Shown here: piece after piece, positions 6,408 through 61,317 of the stretch
Layout of the letters: every line of letters begins with the position of its first letter
Numbering within the stretch: the stretch's first letter is position 1
Origin: Pandoraea pnomenusa
GTDB taxonomy: Bacteria > Pseudomonadota > Gammaproteobacteria > Burkholderiales > Burkholderiaceae
Direction of reading: 5' to 3'
DNA length: 64,000 bases
Assembly: GCF_000767615.3 (NCBI RefSeq)
Contig: NZ_CP009553.3
Coordinates: 620,001-684,000 of the forward strand
The notes under the pieces: generated by a model
What the model saw: only the letters and a program-made list of their open reading frames with translations
Told to the model about the DNA's origin: nothing
Databases searched by the model: none
Program-made: the position numbers and the translations under genes

Positions 6408-8102
6408 TCAGGCGGTCGCGTCGGCGGAGCGGGCCGGCACGTGATGGCGGCTCTGCACCACGCGGAAACGGTTCGCCACGAAAGCGGCGTCCGCCAGGCT
6501 CGCATTCGCGGCCGGGTTGCCGCCCGTGCCGTGATAGTCCGAGAAGGCGGCCGACTGGTTCACGAACACGCCGCCCGTGAGGTTCAGCGACAGCGCCACG
6601 CGGCCCTCGATGGCGGCGTCGAGCGCCTGGGACTCGCCTTCGGCCGACGTCGTGTAGGCCGAGAGCGTGAGCGCACCGTGTTCGGCGGCGATGCGTCCGG
6701 CCAGCGCGAAGGCCTGTGCGCTGCTGTCGACGGCGATCACGAAGGCGATCGGGCCGAACCACTCACGCGTGAAGGTCGCCTCGTCGGCCACGTCGAGGGC
6801 CACGATCAGCGGCGTGCGAACGCGGGCGTCGGCGAAAGCCGGGTGCTGCAGCGACTGGCTGTCGAGGACCACACGACCGAGACCGCGGGCTTCCTCGATC
6901 CGCGCGAGCACGCCCTCGTTCTGGATCGCTCCGAGCAGCTCCACGGCCTTGGCCGGGTCGCTGCACGTTTTTTGAACGCTGCCCGCGATGGCGGACACGA
7001 CCTCGTCGAACGACACCTTGCCGTCCGGAGTCTGGATGCCGTCGCGCGGAATATAGATGTTCTGCGGTGCGGTGCACATCTGACCCGAGTACAGCGCCAG
7101 CGAGAAGCCGATGTTGCGGGCCATGCCCTTGAGGTCATCCGTCGAGTCGATCACGATCTGGTTCACGCCGGCCTTCTCGGTATAGACCTGTGCCTGACGG
7201 GCGTGGGTCTCGAGCCAGTCGCCGTTGGCGGTGCTGCCCGTGAAGTCGATCACGCGCACTTCGCCGCGCTGGGCGAGCTGCTGGACGATGGCGCCGTCGT
7301 TCGGGTTGGTCGCGGCGAGCGTGACCACGTCCGGATCGAAGCCGGCTTCCTTGAGCACCTCGCGAGCAATCTTCACCGTGATGGCCAGCGGCAGGATCGC
7401 ACCCGGATGCGGCTTGACGATCACGGCATTGCCGGTCGCCAGGCTGGCGAACAGGCCGGGATAGCCATTCCACGTGGGGAACGTACAGCAGCCGAGGACC
7501 AGTGCCACGCCGCGCGGCACCACCGTGTAGCGCTTTTCCATGGCGAGCGGCGGGTTCTTGCCCTGCGGCTTCTCCCAGTAGGCGTCGGCCGGAATGCGGC
7601 GCAATTCGTCCCAGGCGTAGGCCACGGCTTCGAGGCCGCGATCCTGGGCGTGCGGGCCGCCGGCCTGAAACGCCATCATGAAGGCCTGGCCCGTGGTGTG
7701 CATGACGGCGTTGGCCATCTCGAAGCTGCGGGCGTTCAGGCGCTTGAGGATTTCGAGCGAGACACCGACCCAGGCGTCCGGCGTGGCGGCGCGGTACGAC
7801 TTGTGCGCGTCGCTCACGCGGGCGAGCAGGGTGTCGATTTCGAACCCGGGATAGGTCGTGCCCAGGGCGAAGCCGAACGGCGAGGTTTCCTGGCCGACGC
7901 TTCCCGTGCTGCCGCGCTGCTCGAGCGGGAAGGCGGCGTTCAGATACTGCTTGAAGGCGGCTTCGCCGTCGGCGGCCGCCGTTTCGCCATACGCGCGCGG
8001 GCTCGGCATTTCCGTGAACGGGCTCCAGTAACCACGCGTGGCGATGGCCTGAAGGGCGCGCTCGAGAGTCTCTTGGTGTTTGGCGAAGAGGGGATGGGTC
8101 AT
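6408..8102 (-). CDS. paaN: Phenylacetate degradation aldehyde dehydrogenase PaaN (PaaZ-like, no hydratase domain)
   Basis: The 564-residue protein is a PaaN/PaaZ-type aldehyde dehydrogenase, expected to oxidise the highly reactive semialdehyde produced on oxepin-CoA ring opening to 3-oxo-5,6-dehydrosuberyl-CoA. Visible features are VLGCCTFPTWNGYPGLF in the cofactor region, FTGSTANGDWLE, and the catalytic cysteine in YSGQMCTAPQNIYIP. The fused E. coli PaaZ is about 680 residues with a C-terminal MaoC-type hydratase domain; this one ends after the dehydrogenase fold, so the ring-opening hydrolase must be a separate protein. It is the first gene of the leftward operon, behind an extended -10 promoter with a palindromic operator. 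Related Burkholderia genes are named paaZ. Confidence 0.88.
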   Translation of the reverse strand: MTHPLFAKHQETLERALQAIATRGYWSPFTEMPSPRAYGETAAADGEAAFKQYLNAAFPLEQRGSTGSVGQETSPFGFALGTTYPGFEIDTLLARVSDAHKSYRAATPDAWVGVSLEILKRLNARSFEMANAVMHTTGQAFMMAFQAGGPHAQDRGLEAVAYAWDELRRIPADAYWEKPQGKNPPLAMEKRYTVVPRGVALVLGCCTFPTWNGYPGLFASLATGNAVIVKPHPGAILPLAITVKIAREVLKEAGFDPDVVTLAATNPNDGAIVQQLAQRGEVRVIDFTGSTANGDWLETHARQAQVYTEKAGVNQIVIDSTDDLKGMARNIGFSLALYSGQMCTAPQNIYIPRDGIQTPDGKVSFDEVVSAIAGSVQKTCSDPAKAVELLGAIQNEGVLARIEEARGLGRVVLDSQSLQHPAFADARVRTPLIVALDVADEATFTREWFGPIAFVIAVDSSAQAFALAGRIAAEHGALTLSAYTTSAEGESQALDAAIEGRVALSLNLTGGVFVNQSAAFSDYHGTGGNPAANASLADAAFVANRFRVVQSRHHVPARSADATA

Positions 8103-57979: not shown

Positions 57980-58093
57980 GCGATGGGGTGCGCGTATGGC
58001 GCAGGGGGTTCACAATGAGTTGTCACTATAGCAGAGGGCATCGCGGCGTTTGGCGTCTCGGCGGCGGACGACGGGGGGCTCGGCCCGAACGGC

Positions 58094-58849
58094 TCACGTC
58101 TGCTGATTCAGCGCCCGGACCACCGCCTTTTGCGCGAGACTGTCCGCCGGCCCGACCACTGCGTAATTCATTCCGTTGACCGACCCGTAGCGCGCGAGCA
58201 ACTGTCCGTCCATGCGTTCGCCGGCCGCCATCAGATGCTGCGCCGACTCCGGCGGTCTCAGGTAGAAGCTCAGCGTGCGTCCCGCATCGTCCTGATACAG
58301 CACCATTGCGGCGGCGCCGTGCCCGGTCGCGAACAGGCGTCCGCCAACCGGTCGGAATCCCGCCGCGCTCAGATCGGGCAACACCGCCGACTTTCCGACG
58401 CGCGTGGTGAGCCACGTCTGCAATTCGCCCGCGCTCGACGGCCTGAAGTCCACTTTCGCCGTCCCGTCCACGACCATCATCCGGTACGCCTCGACCGCAT
58501 CGCTCATCGGTGGCACGCCCGGTGACGCGTTCCAGCCCCGCGCCTGCCATCCGCCGAACGTGCCCAGTCCGATGCAGAACACGAATGACGCGGCCATCGC
58601 AAACCGCATGCGCGAGCGCGCCGCGCGCCGCGCGCGGATCGCACGCGGGTCGAGCGCCGGATTGTCGCCTGGCATGCGCACGCTTTCGAGCGCCGCGCGC
58701 AGTCGCTGTGCATCCTGGCGCCATTGCCGGACCCGCTCAGCCTGTGCCGGATGCAGTGCGAGATGACGTTCCACGGCAGCGCGCGCTTCGTCGTCGAGCT
58801 GCCCGTCGACATAAGCCTGGAGATCATGTTCGTCGGGACGGATGTTCAT
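58094..58849 (-). CDS. Anti-sigma factor, single-pass membrane protein
   Basis: The 251-residue protein has the layout of an ECF anti-sigma factor: a cytoplasmic helical sigma-binding domain (residues 1-75, with DEHDLQAYVDGQLDDEAR), one membrane segment (about 82-98, FAMAASFVFCIGLGTFGG) and a periplasmic sensor domain. The zinc anti-sigma cysteines (HxxxCxxC) are absent; the corresponding spot reads HLALHPAQAERV. So it is not a classical redox-switch ZAS protein. Its ATG overlaps the sigma-factor stop by four bases, a typical coupling. It presumably holds the sigma factor inactive until an envelope or oxidant signal arrives. Confidence 0.88.
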   Translation of the reverse strand: MNIRPDEHDLQAYVDGQLDDEARAAVERHLALHPAQAERVRQWRQDAQRLRAALESVRMPGDNPALDPRAIRARRAARSRMRFAMAASFVFCIGLGTFGGWQARGWNASPGVPPMSDAVEAYRMMVVDGTAKVDFRPSSAGELQTWLTTRVGKSAVLPDLSAAGFRPVGGRLFATGHGAAAMVLYQDDAGRTLSFYLRPPESAQHLMAAGERMDGQLLARYGSVNGMNYAVVGPADSLAQKAVVRALNQQT

Positions 58850-59376
58850 TTCTTCATCAACCGCAAAGAAGGGGTGGCAGGTTCGCCGTCGCTCAGTTGA
58901 CGCAGCGCCTGGCGTGCGCGTGAAAGCCGCGACATCACTGTGCCGATCGGCACATCGAGCAGATCGGCGACTTCCTGGTACGTGCAGCCTTCGACCGCGA
59001 CGAGCAGCAACAGACTGCGTTGCTCGTCGGACAGCCGCCCGAACGCTTCGAGCGTCGCGCGCGCGGCCACCTCGCGTTCGGCGGAGGGCCAGTGCGACTC
59101 ATCGTCGTCGCGCATGCGCCCGAGCAGCCAGGCGTAACGTTTCGCGCTGCGCTTGCCGTCGAGAAACTGCCGGTAAAGGATCGTGAACAACCAGCTGCGC
59201 AGCGATGCATCCTCGCGGCGGCTCGTCCAGCGCGACAGCGCGCGCTCGAGCGTCGCCTGCACGAGATCGTCGGCGGCGTGGACGTCGCGCGCCAACCAGA
59301 GCGCGAAACGTCGCAGCCGGGGGATGAGTTCGCGTAACGCGTCGTCGTCGGGAGCGTCGGGAGCGTTTGAGGGCAT
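58846..59376 (-). CDS. ECF-type RNA polymerase sigma factor
   Basis: The 176-residue protein has region 2 (LARDVHAADDLVQATLERAL, then SLRSWLFTILYRQFLD) and region 4 (LLLLVAVEGCTYQEVADLLDVPIGTVMSRLSRAR), and no region 1 or 3, which defines an ECF sigma factor. I chose the ATG at 59376 (MPSNAPDAPDDDALRE) because a predicted autoregulatory promoter (59440-59414) starts transcription near 59407, downstream of the alternative ATG at 59433. The gene is coupled to its anti-sigma factor and divergent from the catalase-like peroxidase and cytochrome b561 that are its probable targets. Confidence 0.9.
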   Translation of the reverse strand: MPSNAPDAPDDDALRELIPRLRRFALWLARDVHAADDLVQATLERALSRWTSRREDASLRSWLFTILYRQFLDGKRSAKRYAWLLGRMRDDDESHWPSAEREVAARATLEAFGRLSDEQRSLLLLVAVEGCTYQEVADLLDVPIGTVMSRLSRARQALRQLSDGEPATPSLRLMKK

Positions 59377-59413
59377 GGCCGGGCCGGTTGCCGAAAGCGT
59401 GGAGATGCCACGT

Positions 59414-59440
59414 AAGACGCCGGTCGGCGTCATCTATTCC
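59414..59440 (-). promoter_or_regulatory. ECF-type promoter of the sigma/anti-sigma operon
   Basis: Reading leftwards, GGAAT at 59440-59436 and CGTCTT at 59419-59414 are separated by 16 bases. This matches the GGAAC-N16-CGTC type used by ECF sigma factors. It is the mirror image of the promoter on the other strand. Confidence 0.7.
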
Positions 59441-59466
59441 ATCAGCGTACGAAAAATTTCGTCGAT

Positions 59467-59494
59467 GGAATAAGGCGGCGCGGGGAGCGTCCTA
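59467..59494 (+). promoter_or_regulatory. ECF-type promoter of the peroxidase / cytochrome b561 operon
   Basis: GGAAT at 59467-59471 and CGTCCTAA at 59488-59495 are separated by 16 bases, the same spacing as the leftward promoter. Both -35 words lie inside an inverted repeat, ATTCCATC (59436-59443) and GATGGAAT (59464-59471), with an AT-rich centre. Confidence 0.7.
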
Positions 59495-59533
59495 AGCGCG
59501 TTCGACAATGATCTGACGATCGGGAGTGAATTC

Positions 59534-60622
59534 ATGGAGCAATCTTCTTCCTCGCAGCCGCCGACGCGTGTCGCGTGGCGCTGGGCCGTGATCGGCGGCG
59601 CGGTGGCTGGCGTGGCCGTCGCGTTCGGGTATGTCGGCGGCTGGCTCGCACCCGCGCGCCTGACGCCGCATCGGCTCGTCGACGCGCTGCAGGCCAACAG
59701 CGGCGTGTATCCCGGCTTTCGGCGCAATCACGCGAAGGGCGTGTGTGTGACCGGGTACTTCGAAGGCAATGGTGTCGCGAGCGCGTATTCCATCGCGCAG
59801 TTCTTCAAGGCGGGCCGCACACCGGTGGTCGGCCGCTTCGCGTTGCCGGGCGGCAATCCGTATGCGCCCGACAGCAGCGTGCCGATTCGAAGCCTGGCGT
59901 TGAAGCTGACGGCGCCGGACGGCGAGCAATGGCGCACTGGAATGAACGCGATGTCCGTGTTTCCGGTGGCGACGCCGCAGGCGTTCTACGAGCAGACGGT
60001 CGCGACCCGGCCCGATCCGAAGACCGGCAAGCCGGACCCCGCGAAGGTGAAGGCGTTCTTCGACGCGCATCCGGAGACGGCTGCGTTTCGCGACTGGATC
60101 AAGGGGGCGAAGCCGAGCGCGAGTTTCGTCACCGAGCGCTATTACGGATTGAACGCGTTCTATTTTGTCGACGCGGCCGGACAGCGACGCGCGGTGCGGT
60201 GGCGTGTCGAGCCTGAGCAAACGGCAGGCGCGGGCGAGGTCGCGACAGCTTCGGATCCCGACGTGCTGGCGCAGGATCTGACGCGCCGCATCGCGCAAGG
60301 CGCGCAGAAGTGGAAGTTGTTGGTCACGCTTGCAGCCCCCGGCGATCCGGTCGACGACGCGACGAAGGTCTGGCCCGCGCAGCGCACGACGATCGACGCA
60401 GGCACGCTGGTGCTTGACCACGTGGCGCCGCAGGACAGCGGGTCGTGCCGGGATGTGAATTACGACCCCACGGTGCTGCCGCAGGGGATTCAGGTATCCG
60501 GAGATCCGTTGCTGGCGGCGAGGTCGGCCGCGTATGCGGATTCGTATCTGCGCCGAACGAGTGAAGAGGCCGGTGTGGCCGGGGTGGCCGGTGTGGCGCG
60601 ATTGAGTGCGGAGGGACGGTGA
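59534..60622 (+). CDS. Membrane-anchored catalase-family peroxidase (SrpA-like)
   Basis: The 362-residue protein is a short member of the heme catalase family, much smaller than housekeeping catalases (about 480 or more). An N-terminal hydrophobic segment (residues 18-38) would anchor or export it, placing the domain in the periplasm. The distal histidine is His66 in FRRNHAKGVCVTGYF, and the proximal heme ligand is probably Tyr334 in RSAAYADSYLRR, preserving the RxxxY motif. Such proteins usually act as peroxidases and not as true catalases. GGGAGTGAATTC precedes the ATG. The next gene, a cytochrome b561, overlaps by one base and may supply electrons. Confidence 0.9.
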   Translation: MEQSSSSQPPTRVAWRWAVIGGAVAGVAVAFGYVGGWLAPARLTPHRLVDALQANSGVYPGFRRNHAKGVCVTGYFEGNGVASAYSIAQFFKAGRTPVVGRFALPGGNPYAPDSSVPIRSLALKLTAPDGEQWRTGMNAMSVFPVATPQAFYEQTVATRPDPKTGKPDPAKVKAFFDAHPETAAFRDWIKGAKPSASFVTERYYGLNAFYFVDAAGQRRAVRWRVEPEQTAGAGEVATASDPDVLAQDLTRRIAQGAQKWKLLVTLAAPGDPVDDATKVWPAQRTTIDAGTLVLDHVAPQDSGSCRDVNYDPTVLPQGIQVSGDPLLAARSAAYADSYLRRTSEEAGVAGVAGVARLSAEGR

Positions 60623-61152
60623 TGAGGGCTTCTACGACGTTTGGTTTGCCGGCGCGCGTGTTGCATTGGGTGATGGCGGCGATGGTGCTCACGATGCTGT
60701 TCGTCGGCGTGGGGATGGTGGCGTCCGTGTCCGAGCGGCACGAATTCCTGGTCGCGTTGCACAAGCCACTGGGAATCGCTGTGCTGATGCTGGTGTGTGT
60801 GCGGATCGTGGTGCGGTTTTCGTCGAAGCCCCCCGCGTTGCCCGAGGATCTGCCCCGATGGCAGAAATCGGCCGCGCATGGATCGCATGTCGCGCTGTAT
60901 GCGTTGATGATCTCGATGCCGTTGATCGGGTGGGCGATGCTCTCGGCGGGCGGGTATCCGGTGACGCTGGGCGGTGGCGTGCAGTTGCCGGCAATCGTAT
61001 CGGCCAGTCCGGTGACGTTTGCGTGGCTCAGGGTCGCGCATCGCGTGCTGGCGTATCTGTTCTTTCTGACATTCCTGGCGCATTTCGCGGCGGCGCTTTA
61101 CCACGGCCTGATTCGCAGGGATGGGGTTGTGCGGACGATGGTGGGGAGGTGA
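60622..61152 (+). CDS. Cytochrome b561
   Basis: The 176-residue integral membrane protein has four membrane segments and the paired histidines of the bacterial cytochrome b561 family: one in ARVLHWVMA, one in VALHKPLGI, one in HGSHVALYALM and one in LRVAHRVLAY, with another in LAHFAAALYHGL. These ligate two hemes b and move electrons from ubiquinol across the inner membrane. The ATG at 60622 follows GCGGAGGGACG; a GTG at 60619 is an alternative. It overlaps the stop of the peroxidase gene, so electron donation to that protein is a reasonable inference. Confidence 0.92.
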   Translation: MRASTTFGLPARVLHWVMAAMVLTMLFVGVGMVASVSERHEFLVALHKPLGIAVLMLVCVRIVVRFSSKPPALPEDLPRWQKSAAHGSHVALYALMISMPLIGWAMLSAGGYPVTLGGGVQLPAIVSASPVTFAWLRVAHRVLAYLFFLTFLAHFAAALYHGLIRRDGVVRTMVGR

Positions 61153-61277
61153 GAGAGGTGCGGCGAGATGCGTTTTGTGCGTCTTGCCGCAGCGACGGTC
61201 GGCAACGGTGGAAGCCTGGCGGCAGAACCGAGGGACAGTGGCGACGGATTCGCCAATGCCGACCGCACAAACAAAAA

Positions 61278-61299
61278 CAGCGGGTTGGATAACCCGCTG
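61278..61299 (-). terminator. Terminator downstream of tRNA-Pro
   Basis: CAGCGGGTT pairs with AACCCGCTG around a four-base loop. On the reverse strand it is followed by TTTTTGTTTG, so it ends the leftward ispB-tRNA transcript. Confidence 0.88.
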
Positions 61300-61317
61300 C
61301 TTCGTCATACAAATGTT

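Follow-up and report, generated by a model that had tools for sequence, protein, structure and literature searches.

A probable pair of mirror-image ECF26-type promoters between a sigma/anti-sigma operon and a peroxidase/cytochrome b561 operon in Pandoraea pnomenusa

Two outward-facing promoter elements in one intergenic region

When an ECF sigma factor gene lies back to back with the gene of a peroxidase, the question arises whether one sigma factor switches on both its own operon and that of the neighboring enzyme. In the window (the whole stretch of 64,000 nucleotides analyzed here) two such operons are separated by 157 bases (59377-59533). A sequence-only reading of this DNA had reported that GGAAT-N16-CGTC occurs once on each strand of this region. 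Both elements are indeed present, head to head and facing outward, and they are the only two matches in the 64-kb window. The features of the locus are as follows.

58094..58849, minus strand: anti-sigma factor, 251 aa (zf-HC2, 7.9e-05); overlaps the sigma gene
58846..59376, minus strand: ECF sigma factor, 176 aa (Pfam Sigma70_r2, Sigma70_r4_2)
59416..59440, minus strand: predicted ECF26-type promoter of the sigma/anti-sigma operon; −35 GGAATAG (59440-59434), −10 CGTC continuing TTA
59441..59466, no strand: 26-bp gap between the −35 words, with an A/T-rich core
59467..59491, plus strand: predicted ECF26-type promoter of the peroxidase/b561 operon; −35 GGAATAA, −10 CGTC continuing CTA
59507..59523, plus strand: leader hairpin GATC-TGAC-GATC, directly 5′ of the Shine-Dalgarno-like GGGAG of the peroxidase gene
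59534..60622, plus strand: catalase-related peroxidase, 362 aa (PF00199, 3.1e-31)
60619..61152, plus strand: cytochrome b561, 177 aa (PF01292, 3.5e-27); overlaps the peroxidase gene

The minus-strand element (59440..59416, GGAATAGATGACGCCGACCGGCGTC) reads toward the sigma/anti-sigma operon, and the plus-strand element (59467..59491, GGAATAAGGCGGCGCGGGGAGCGTC) toward the peroxidase/b561 operon. A sigma-operon transcript beginning immediately 3′ of the minus-strand −10 would exclude the upstream in-frame ATG at 59433 as a start codon and leave 59376 possible. In both operons the second gene overlaps the first, and each is therefore probably transcribed as one unit.

Predicted products of the two operons

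The sigma protein carries PF04542/PF22029 and PF08281/PF04545 over its 176 aa, i.e. only the sigma2 and sigma4 domains of the ECF architecture. The sigmas of Burkholderia loci L101 and L102, the nearest named ones among the best 80 of 242 loci, are 93-94% identical to it. In the putative anti-sigma factor, the N-terminal zf-HC2 match lies just over the cut-off, NCBIfam anti-sigma models matched below their cut-offs, and a hydrophobic helix was judged by eye only; a homologous anti-sigma gene adjoins YncE-linked sigmas.

The protein encoded at 59534..60622 is by its sequence a short catalase type and a predicted peroxidase: PF00199 spans residues 63-343 of 362, and the long C-terminal extension of full-size catalases is missing. 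Among solved structures the best relative is 3e4w, a protein of 320 aa that was deposited as uncharacterized. We presume that the family name "catalase-related peroxidase" applies to this short catalase-type protein.

A hairpin abutting the Shine-Dalgarno-like word of the peroxidase gene was found in 49 of 72 loci, compared with a mean of 3.5 of 72 in shuffled sequences (kinship among the loci being ignored in this count). The sequence of the hairpin changes between loci (GAYC-N4-GRTC, GGCC-N4-GGCC).

The promoter pair accompanies the sigma gene

A protein scan of a genome collection provided 80 named peroxidase loci, the best 80 of 242. In 53 of these, spanning Burkholderia, Achromobacter, Bordetella, Luteibacter, Lysobacter and one Dyella, a divergent sigma gene lies beside the peroxidase gene. 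A comparison of these loci, in line with a check that had been suggested, revealed both strict motifs head to head in all 53 sigma-linked loci and neither motif within 700 bp upstream of the catalase gene in any of the 27 sigma-less loci (Dyella, Rhodanobacter, Frateuria and relatives, and one Luteibacter) among these best 80 of 242. The b561 gene is kept in 26 of these 27 loci (best 80 of 242); in the remaining one, L180, the contig ends first.

The strict divergent pair at spacer 16 is present in 63 of 72 sigma-linked regions (window included); the nine that it misses are seven loci of the window's own genus, L270 and L271. We also used a looser pattern (spacer 15-17, −10 [CT]GT[CT]), which was chosen after the own-genus loci had been seen. 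Among the 27 sigma-less loci of the best 80 of 242, it gave a single minus-strand match (L149) and no pair. Besides the 80 named loci, the wider sample comprised seven from the window's own genus, 11 from a sampling of the phylum and one from a Pantoea plasmid (101 loci were entered; L267 and L269, without a catalase, were dropped). In this sample, which includes the best 80 of 242, the loose pair was found in 71 of 71 linked versus 0 of 28 unlinked loci. In the Pantoea plasmid locus, counted as unlinked, all four genes (peroxidase, b561, sigma, anti-sigma) follow one another in the same direction, and a single motif precedes the peroxidase gene.

Close kinship among many of the 53 loci limits the statistical weight of the link between sigma gene and motif: the number of independent pairs is two on starred branches (p 0.5) and seven on all branches. 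The co-occurrence of both motifs with the sigma gene agrees with the earlier proposal of two outward ECF promoters for one adjoining sigma, and it strongly supports a divergent promoter pair that is tied to this gene.

Chance level and predicted regulon

A single GGAAT-N16-CGTC carries little information. Shuffled sequences are expected to contain 0.79 matches per 64 kb, and at least two occurred in 19 of 100 shuffles. The genome scan that had been recommended gave 66 matches in 5.39 Mb, which is the number predicted by that rate, and chance was thus accepted as an explanation for the single motif.

For the divergent pair, chance was ruled out by the pairing and its conservation. When the spacer was varied in the 72 regions, the GGAAT/CGTC pair was found in none at 10-15 and 18-23, and in one at 17. 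Among all divergent combinations of an identical 5-mer-N16-4-mer in these regions, GGAAT/CGTC ranked first with 63, and the runners-up were its own one- and two-base shifts. In dinucleotide shuffles even the loose pair appeared in only 2 of 21,600 regions.

A fuller motif, GGAATAR-N14-CGTCYTA, was searched in 12 genomes (the window's own and 11 of the 21 closest orthologous genomes). All 22 matches with zero mismatch lie at the sigma/peroxidase locus, in keeping with the self-contained switch that the sequence-only reading had suggested. With one mismatch allowed, two sites were found at the locus in each of the 12 genomes and 10 sites outside it, compared with 61 matches of a reversed control pattern. 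Additional regulon sites were rejected on this basis.

The single outside one-mismatch site of the window's own genome overlaps the start of an opposite-strand reading frame and is not promoter-like, and a GGAATA match at 3236861 of the same genome lies within a reading frame. Two of the outside one-mismatch matches in Burkholderia genomes are alike; downstream of one of these two, in L214, no listed frame starts on its strand.

Geometry of the intergenic region

The distance between −35 and −10 is almost invariant in the 144 sites of the 72 loci (16 bp in 135 sites, 17 bp in 9). Between the two −35 words, by contrast, the gap is highly variable (3-63 bp): 14 loci have at most 8 bp, one has 13 bp, 41 have 23-26 bp, 15 have 27-35 bp and one has 63 bp. 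A fixed spacer of 16-17 bp combined with so variable a gap argues for two promoters and not for one operator.

The −35 words of the window had been described as parts of an inverted repeat (arms ATTCCATC at 59436-59443 and GATGGAAT at 59464-59471). The two words themselves are conserved; the ATC/GAT arms beyond them vary among relatives, and a conserved repeat extending past the −35 words was dropped. The AT-rich center, which had been suggested as able to serve both promoters, is marked only at wide gaps (67% AT at 23-26 bp, 52% at 27-40 bp, 25% at 10 bp or less) and thus is not essential. In the window, judging by its composition, the A/T-rich gap 59441..59466 is possibly a shared UP element.

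Origin of the module

DNA similarity indicates that the locus is foreign to its surroundings.

58049..61317, no strand: predicted horizontal insert with the whole module (58094-61152 Burkholderia-like)

The segment 58094-61152 has 88% DNA identity to B. dolosa; outside the insert, to 58048 on one side and from 61318 on the other, the DNA matches that of further own-genus genomes. Of 29 loci fetched from other genomes of this genus, 25 present the site empty of the module, with tlyC within about 300 bp of tRNA-Pro; here the distance is 3.3 kb. Of the other four, L232 and L256 are cut by a contig end, L255 has a distance of about 0.8 kb, and L244 has no tlyC in reach.

The window was placed beside B. 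dolosa both in the peroxidase tree (SH-aLRT 86) and in the sigma tree (100/99, with few Burkholderia rows). We read these data as horizontal acquisition of the whole module, in one piece, from a Burkholderia-like donor and beside tRNA-Pro, which implies that the sigma factor, its brake, the twin promoter and its targets travel together. Direct repeats marking the ends of the insert were sought; the only candidate, of 8 bp, is unconvincing.

Another version of the module was found in seven own-genus genomes (L062-L068), with a peroxidase identity of 57-60%, mirrored GGAATAAG words and GTGTT as −10 instead. Three of these sigmas were placed in the tree, and they fall in another clade. Since the mirrored −35 words are kept with sigmas of a different clade, the arrangement may have formed around two sigma lineages.

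The proposed switch and known ECF26 systems

The most probable reading, to which we assign a probability of roughly 0.88, is that the intergenic region contains two outward promoters for one ECF26-type sigma factor, the adjoining one, and that the switch works as follows. At rest the sigma factor would be held by the anti-sigma factor, which is probably located in the membrane. The sigma factor would be released in response to a signal, possibly an oxidant or a compound arising from oxidative damage, and RNA polymerase with this sigma would presumably recognize and start at both promoters. The levels of sigma and anti-sigma would thereby rise, an autoregulation that brings its own brake, and peroxidase and cytochrome b561 would be raised together with them. 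Cytochrome b561 may then feed quinol electrons to the peroxidase.

The conserved motif of the locus fits the published ECF26 promoter consensus (−35 GGAATA, −10 containing GT/CGTC). GGAAT/CGTC is a consensus for ECF26 sigmas of S. meliloti and Starkeya that reporter assays and 5′RACE support (PMC6527743), and GGAATA/GT has also been given as the consensus of this group (PMC6180224). In our sigma tree (one row each for selected loci, with three of the seven own-genus loci), RpoE6, the sole ECF26 reference (RpoE1, RpoE3 and RpoE4 were not among the sequences), falls together with the window's clade into a set of 36 rows (91/83) in which other ECFs occur as well. Six rows (L272, L273, L274, L278, L282 and L284) were counted as "no group", with no catalase match alongside.

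For RpoE1 and RpoE4 of Sinorhizobium meliloti, as for Starkeya novella SigE, the promoters have −35 GGAAT and −10 CGTC and the sigma and anti-sigma genes are co-transcribed; RpoE4 drives its own operon and a neighboring redox-enzyme operon, as is proposed here for the window's sigma (PMC6527743, PMC3511301). Unlike the peroxidase here, the target in S. meliloti and Starkeya is a sulfite dehydrogenase, and the accessible text of these papers describes no mirror-image pair. According to the same text, SigE of Starkeya does not act on the promoter of its own gene, in contrast to the switch proposed here. The nepR-ecfG/phyR locus of alphaproteobacteria also combines a sigma operon with a divergent unit driven by that sigma (PMC8103513), but with another sigma group and other targets. 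The locus is thus well supported by sequence comparison as an autoregulated, ECF26-type divergent switch of a known kind.

A sigma of the window's clade was also found beside DUF305 and YncE-like genes (L269), and a mirrored promoter pair (2027-2102, rightward spacer 17) lies between this related sigma and the DUF305/YncE-like operon. This locus resembles the published Starkeya RpoE1 locus (PMC6527743).

The Burkholderia cenocepacia counterpart and the nature of the signal

In B. cenocepacia J2315, the sigma gene BCAL3478 and the divergent catalase gene BCAL3477 showed highly similar induction by H2O2 (PMC2830190). By qPCR after 15, 30 and 60 min, the values were not significant, 5.5 and 16.6 for BCAL3478, and 1.7, 6.5 and 23.1 for BCAL3477; the microarray values at 30 min were 3.4 and 2.7, respectively (PMC2830190). 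NaOCl caused no significant change in either gene, the authors judged the catalase induction to be indirect on account of its lateness, and the role of BCAL3478 was left to be elucidated (PMC2830190). BCAL3478 is EcfB, of 522 bp (PMC2194791).

The sigma gene of the B. cenocepacia ortholog L124, read from an MPSN start, has 173 codons plus a stop, which equals the length of EcfB. The L124 genome contains four catalase-family matches, only one of which is adjoined by a full sigma gene. BCAL3478 and BCAL3477 are therefore probable orthologs of the window's sigma and peroxidase genes. In both cases the sigma gene diverges from the catalase gene, and in B. cenocepacia the two are induced late and in parallel by H2O2 (PMC2830190); unlike the promoter pair read here, neither a promoter pair nor sigma dependence is reported in the accessible part of that work. 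Nor did we find a description of the pair in the open-access literature, a scope that mostly excludes subscription journals. The promoter pair offers a testable explanation of why BCAL3477 and BCAL3478 respond alike, which had been published without one, and it suggests for EcfB, whose role its reporters left open, a probable promoter code and set of targets.

Further catalase genes of J2315 have been named (PMC5739508). In another B. cenocepacia locus (L290) a second catalase gene is followed by a b561 gene, with only a weak partial sigma match nearby. The BCAL1105-1107 cluster encodes an exported protein, a b561 and an oxidoreductase; its b561 gene shows late H2O2 induction like BCAL3477 and is also induced by NaOCl (PMC2830190).

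The label "peroxide-defence" given to the switch by the sequence-only reading was not upheld, as the probable B. cenocepacia orthologs rise late, the catalase induction being judged indirect (PMC2830190), and the ECF26 factors RpoE1 and RpoE4 of S. meliloti answer to sulfite (PMC3511301). The switch may instead respond primarily to sulfite or some different sulfur or redox species and only secondarily to peroxide, an alternative of some weight that we nevertheless hold to be somewhat improbable. It would accommodate the late response to H2O2 and the non-significant effect of NaOCl in B. cenocepacia (PMC2830190), as well as the likeness of the same-clade L269 locus to that of Starkeya RpoE1 (PMC6527743). 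However, the target here is a peroxidase, H2O2 did induce the probable orthologs (PMC2830190), and the authors of the sulfite study suggest that not all ECF26 members are sulfite-activated (PMC3511301).

Both sites may also be ECF promoters that are used, or even mainly driven, by another ECF sigma factor, so that the switch would not be self-contained. ECF26 factors of S. meliloti cross-activate (PMC3511301, PMC10880074), and the genome contains other ECF-like genes. The best of these is, however, only 40% identical to this sigma, which makes it a distant paralog, and the pair accompanies this particular sigma across families and through a transfer; we consider such cross-talk unlikely. A further alternative is that the mirrored ATTCC/GGAAT words, which are arranged as an inverted repeat in the window, are one palindromic operator of a separate dimeric regulator, with the real promoters elsewhere. 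It is highly improbable, since the two halves of such an operator should stand at a constant distance, and the words disappear with the sigma gene from loci that keep peroxidase and b561 (26 of the 27 sigma-less loci among the best 80 of 242).

Gap length and the possible logic of the switch

Returning to two outward promoters for the adjoining sigma, we suggest, as a rather doubtful extension taken as a whole, that the locus is a portable one-locus switch whose twin promoter is the entire regulon, that it has arisen around two ECF lineages, and that the length of the gap sets its logic. At gaps of at least 23 bp two polymerases could initiate at the same time, possibly with one UP element in common, and at gaps of 3-8 bp the −35 regions would admit one polymerase at a time. 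Such mutual exclusion on the narrow-gap versions would keep sigma and peroxidase synthesis in a fixed proportion. With gaps of 3-63 bp, the loci provide a naturally graded set of divergent promoters for studying under which conditions an intergenic region accommodates two polymerases.

In one Achromobacter locus (L131, 7865-7931) we observed a second copy of the plus-strand promoter, with motifs at 7889 and 7931.
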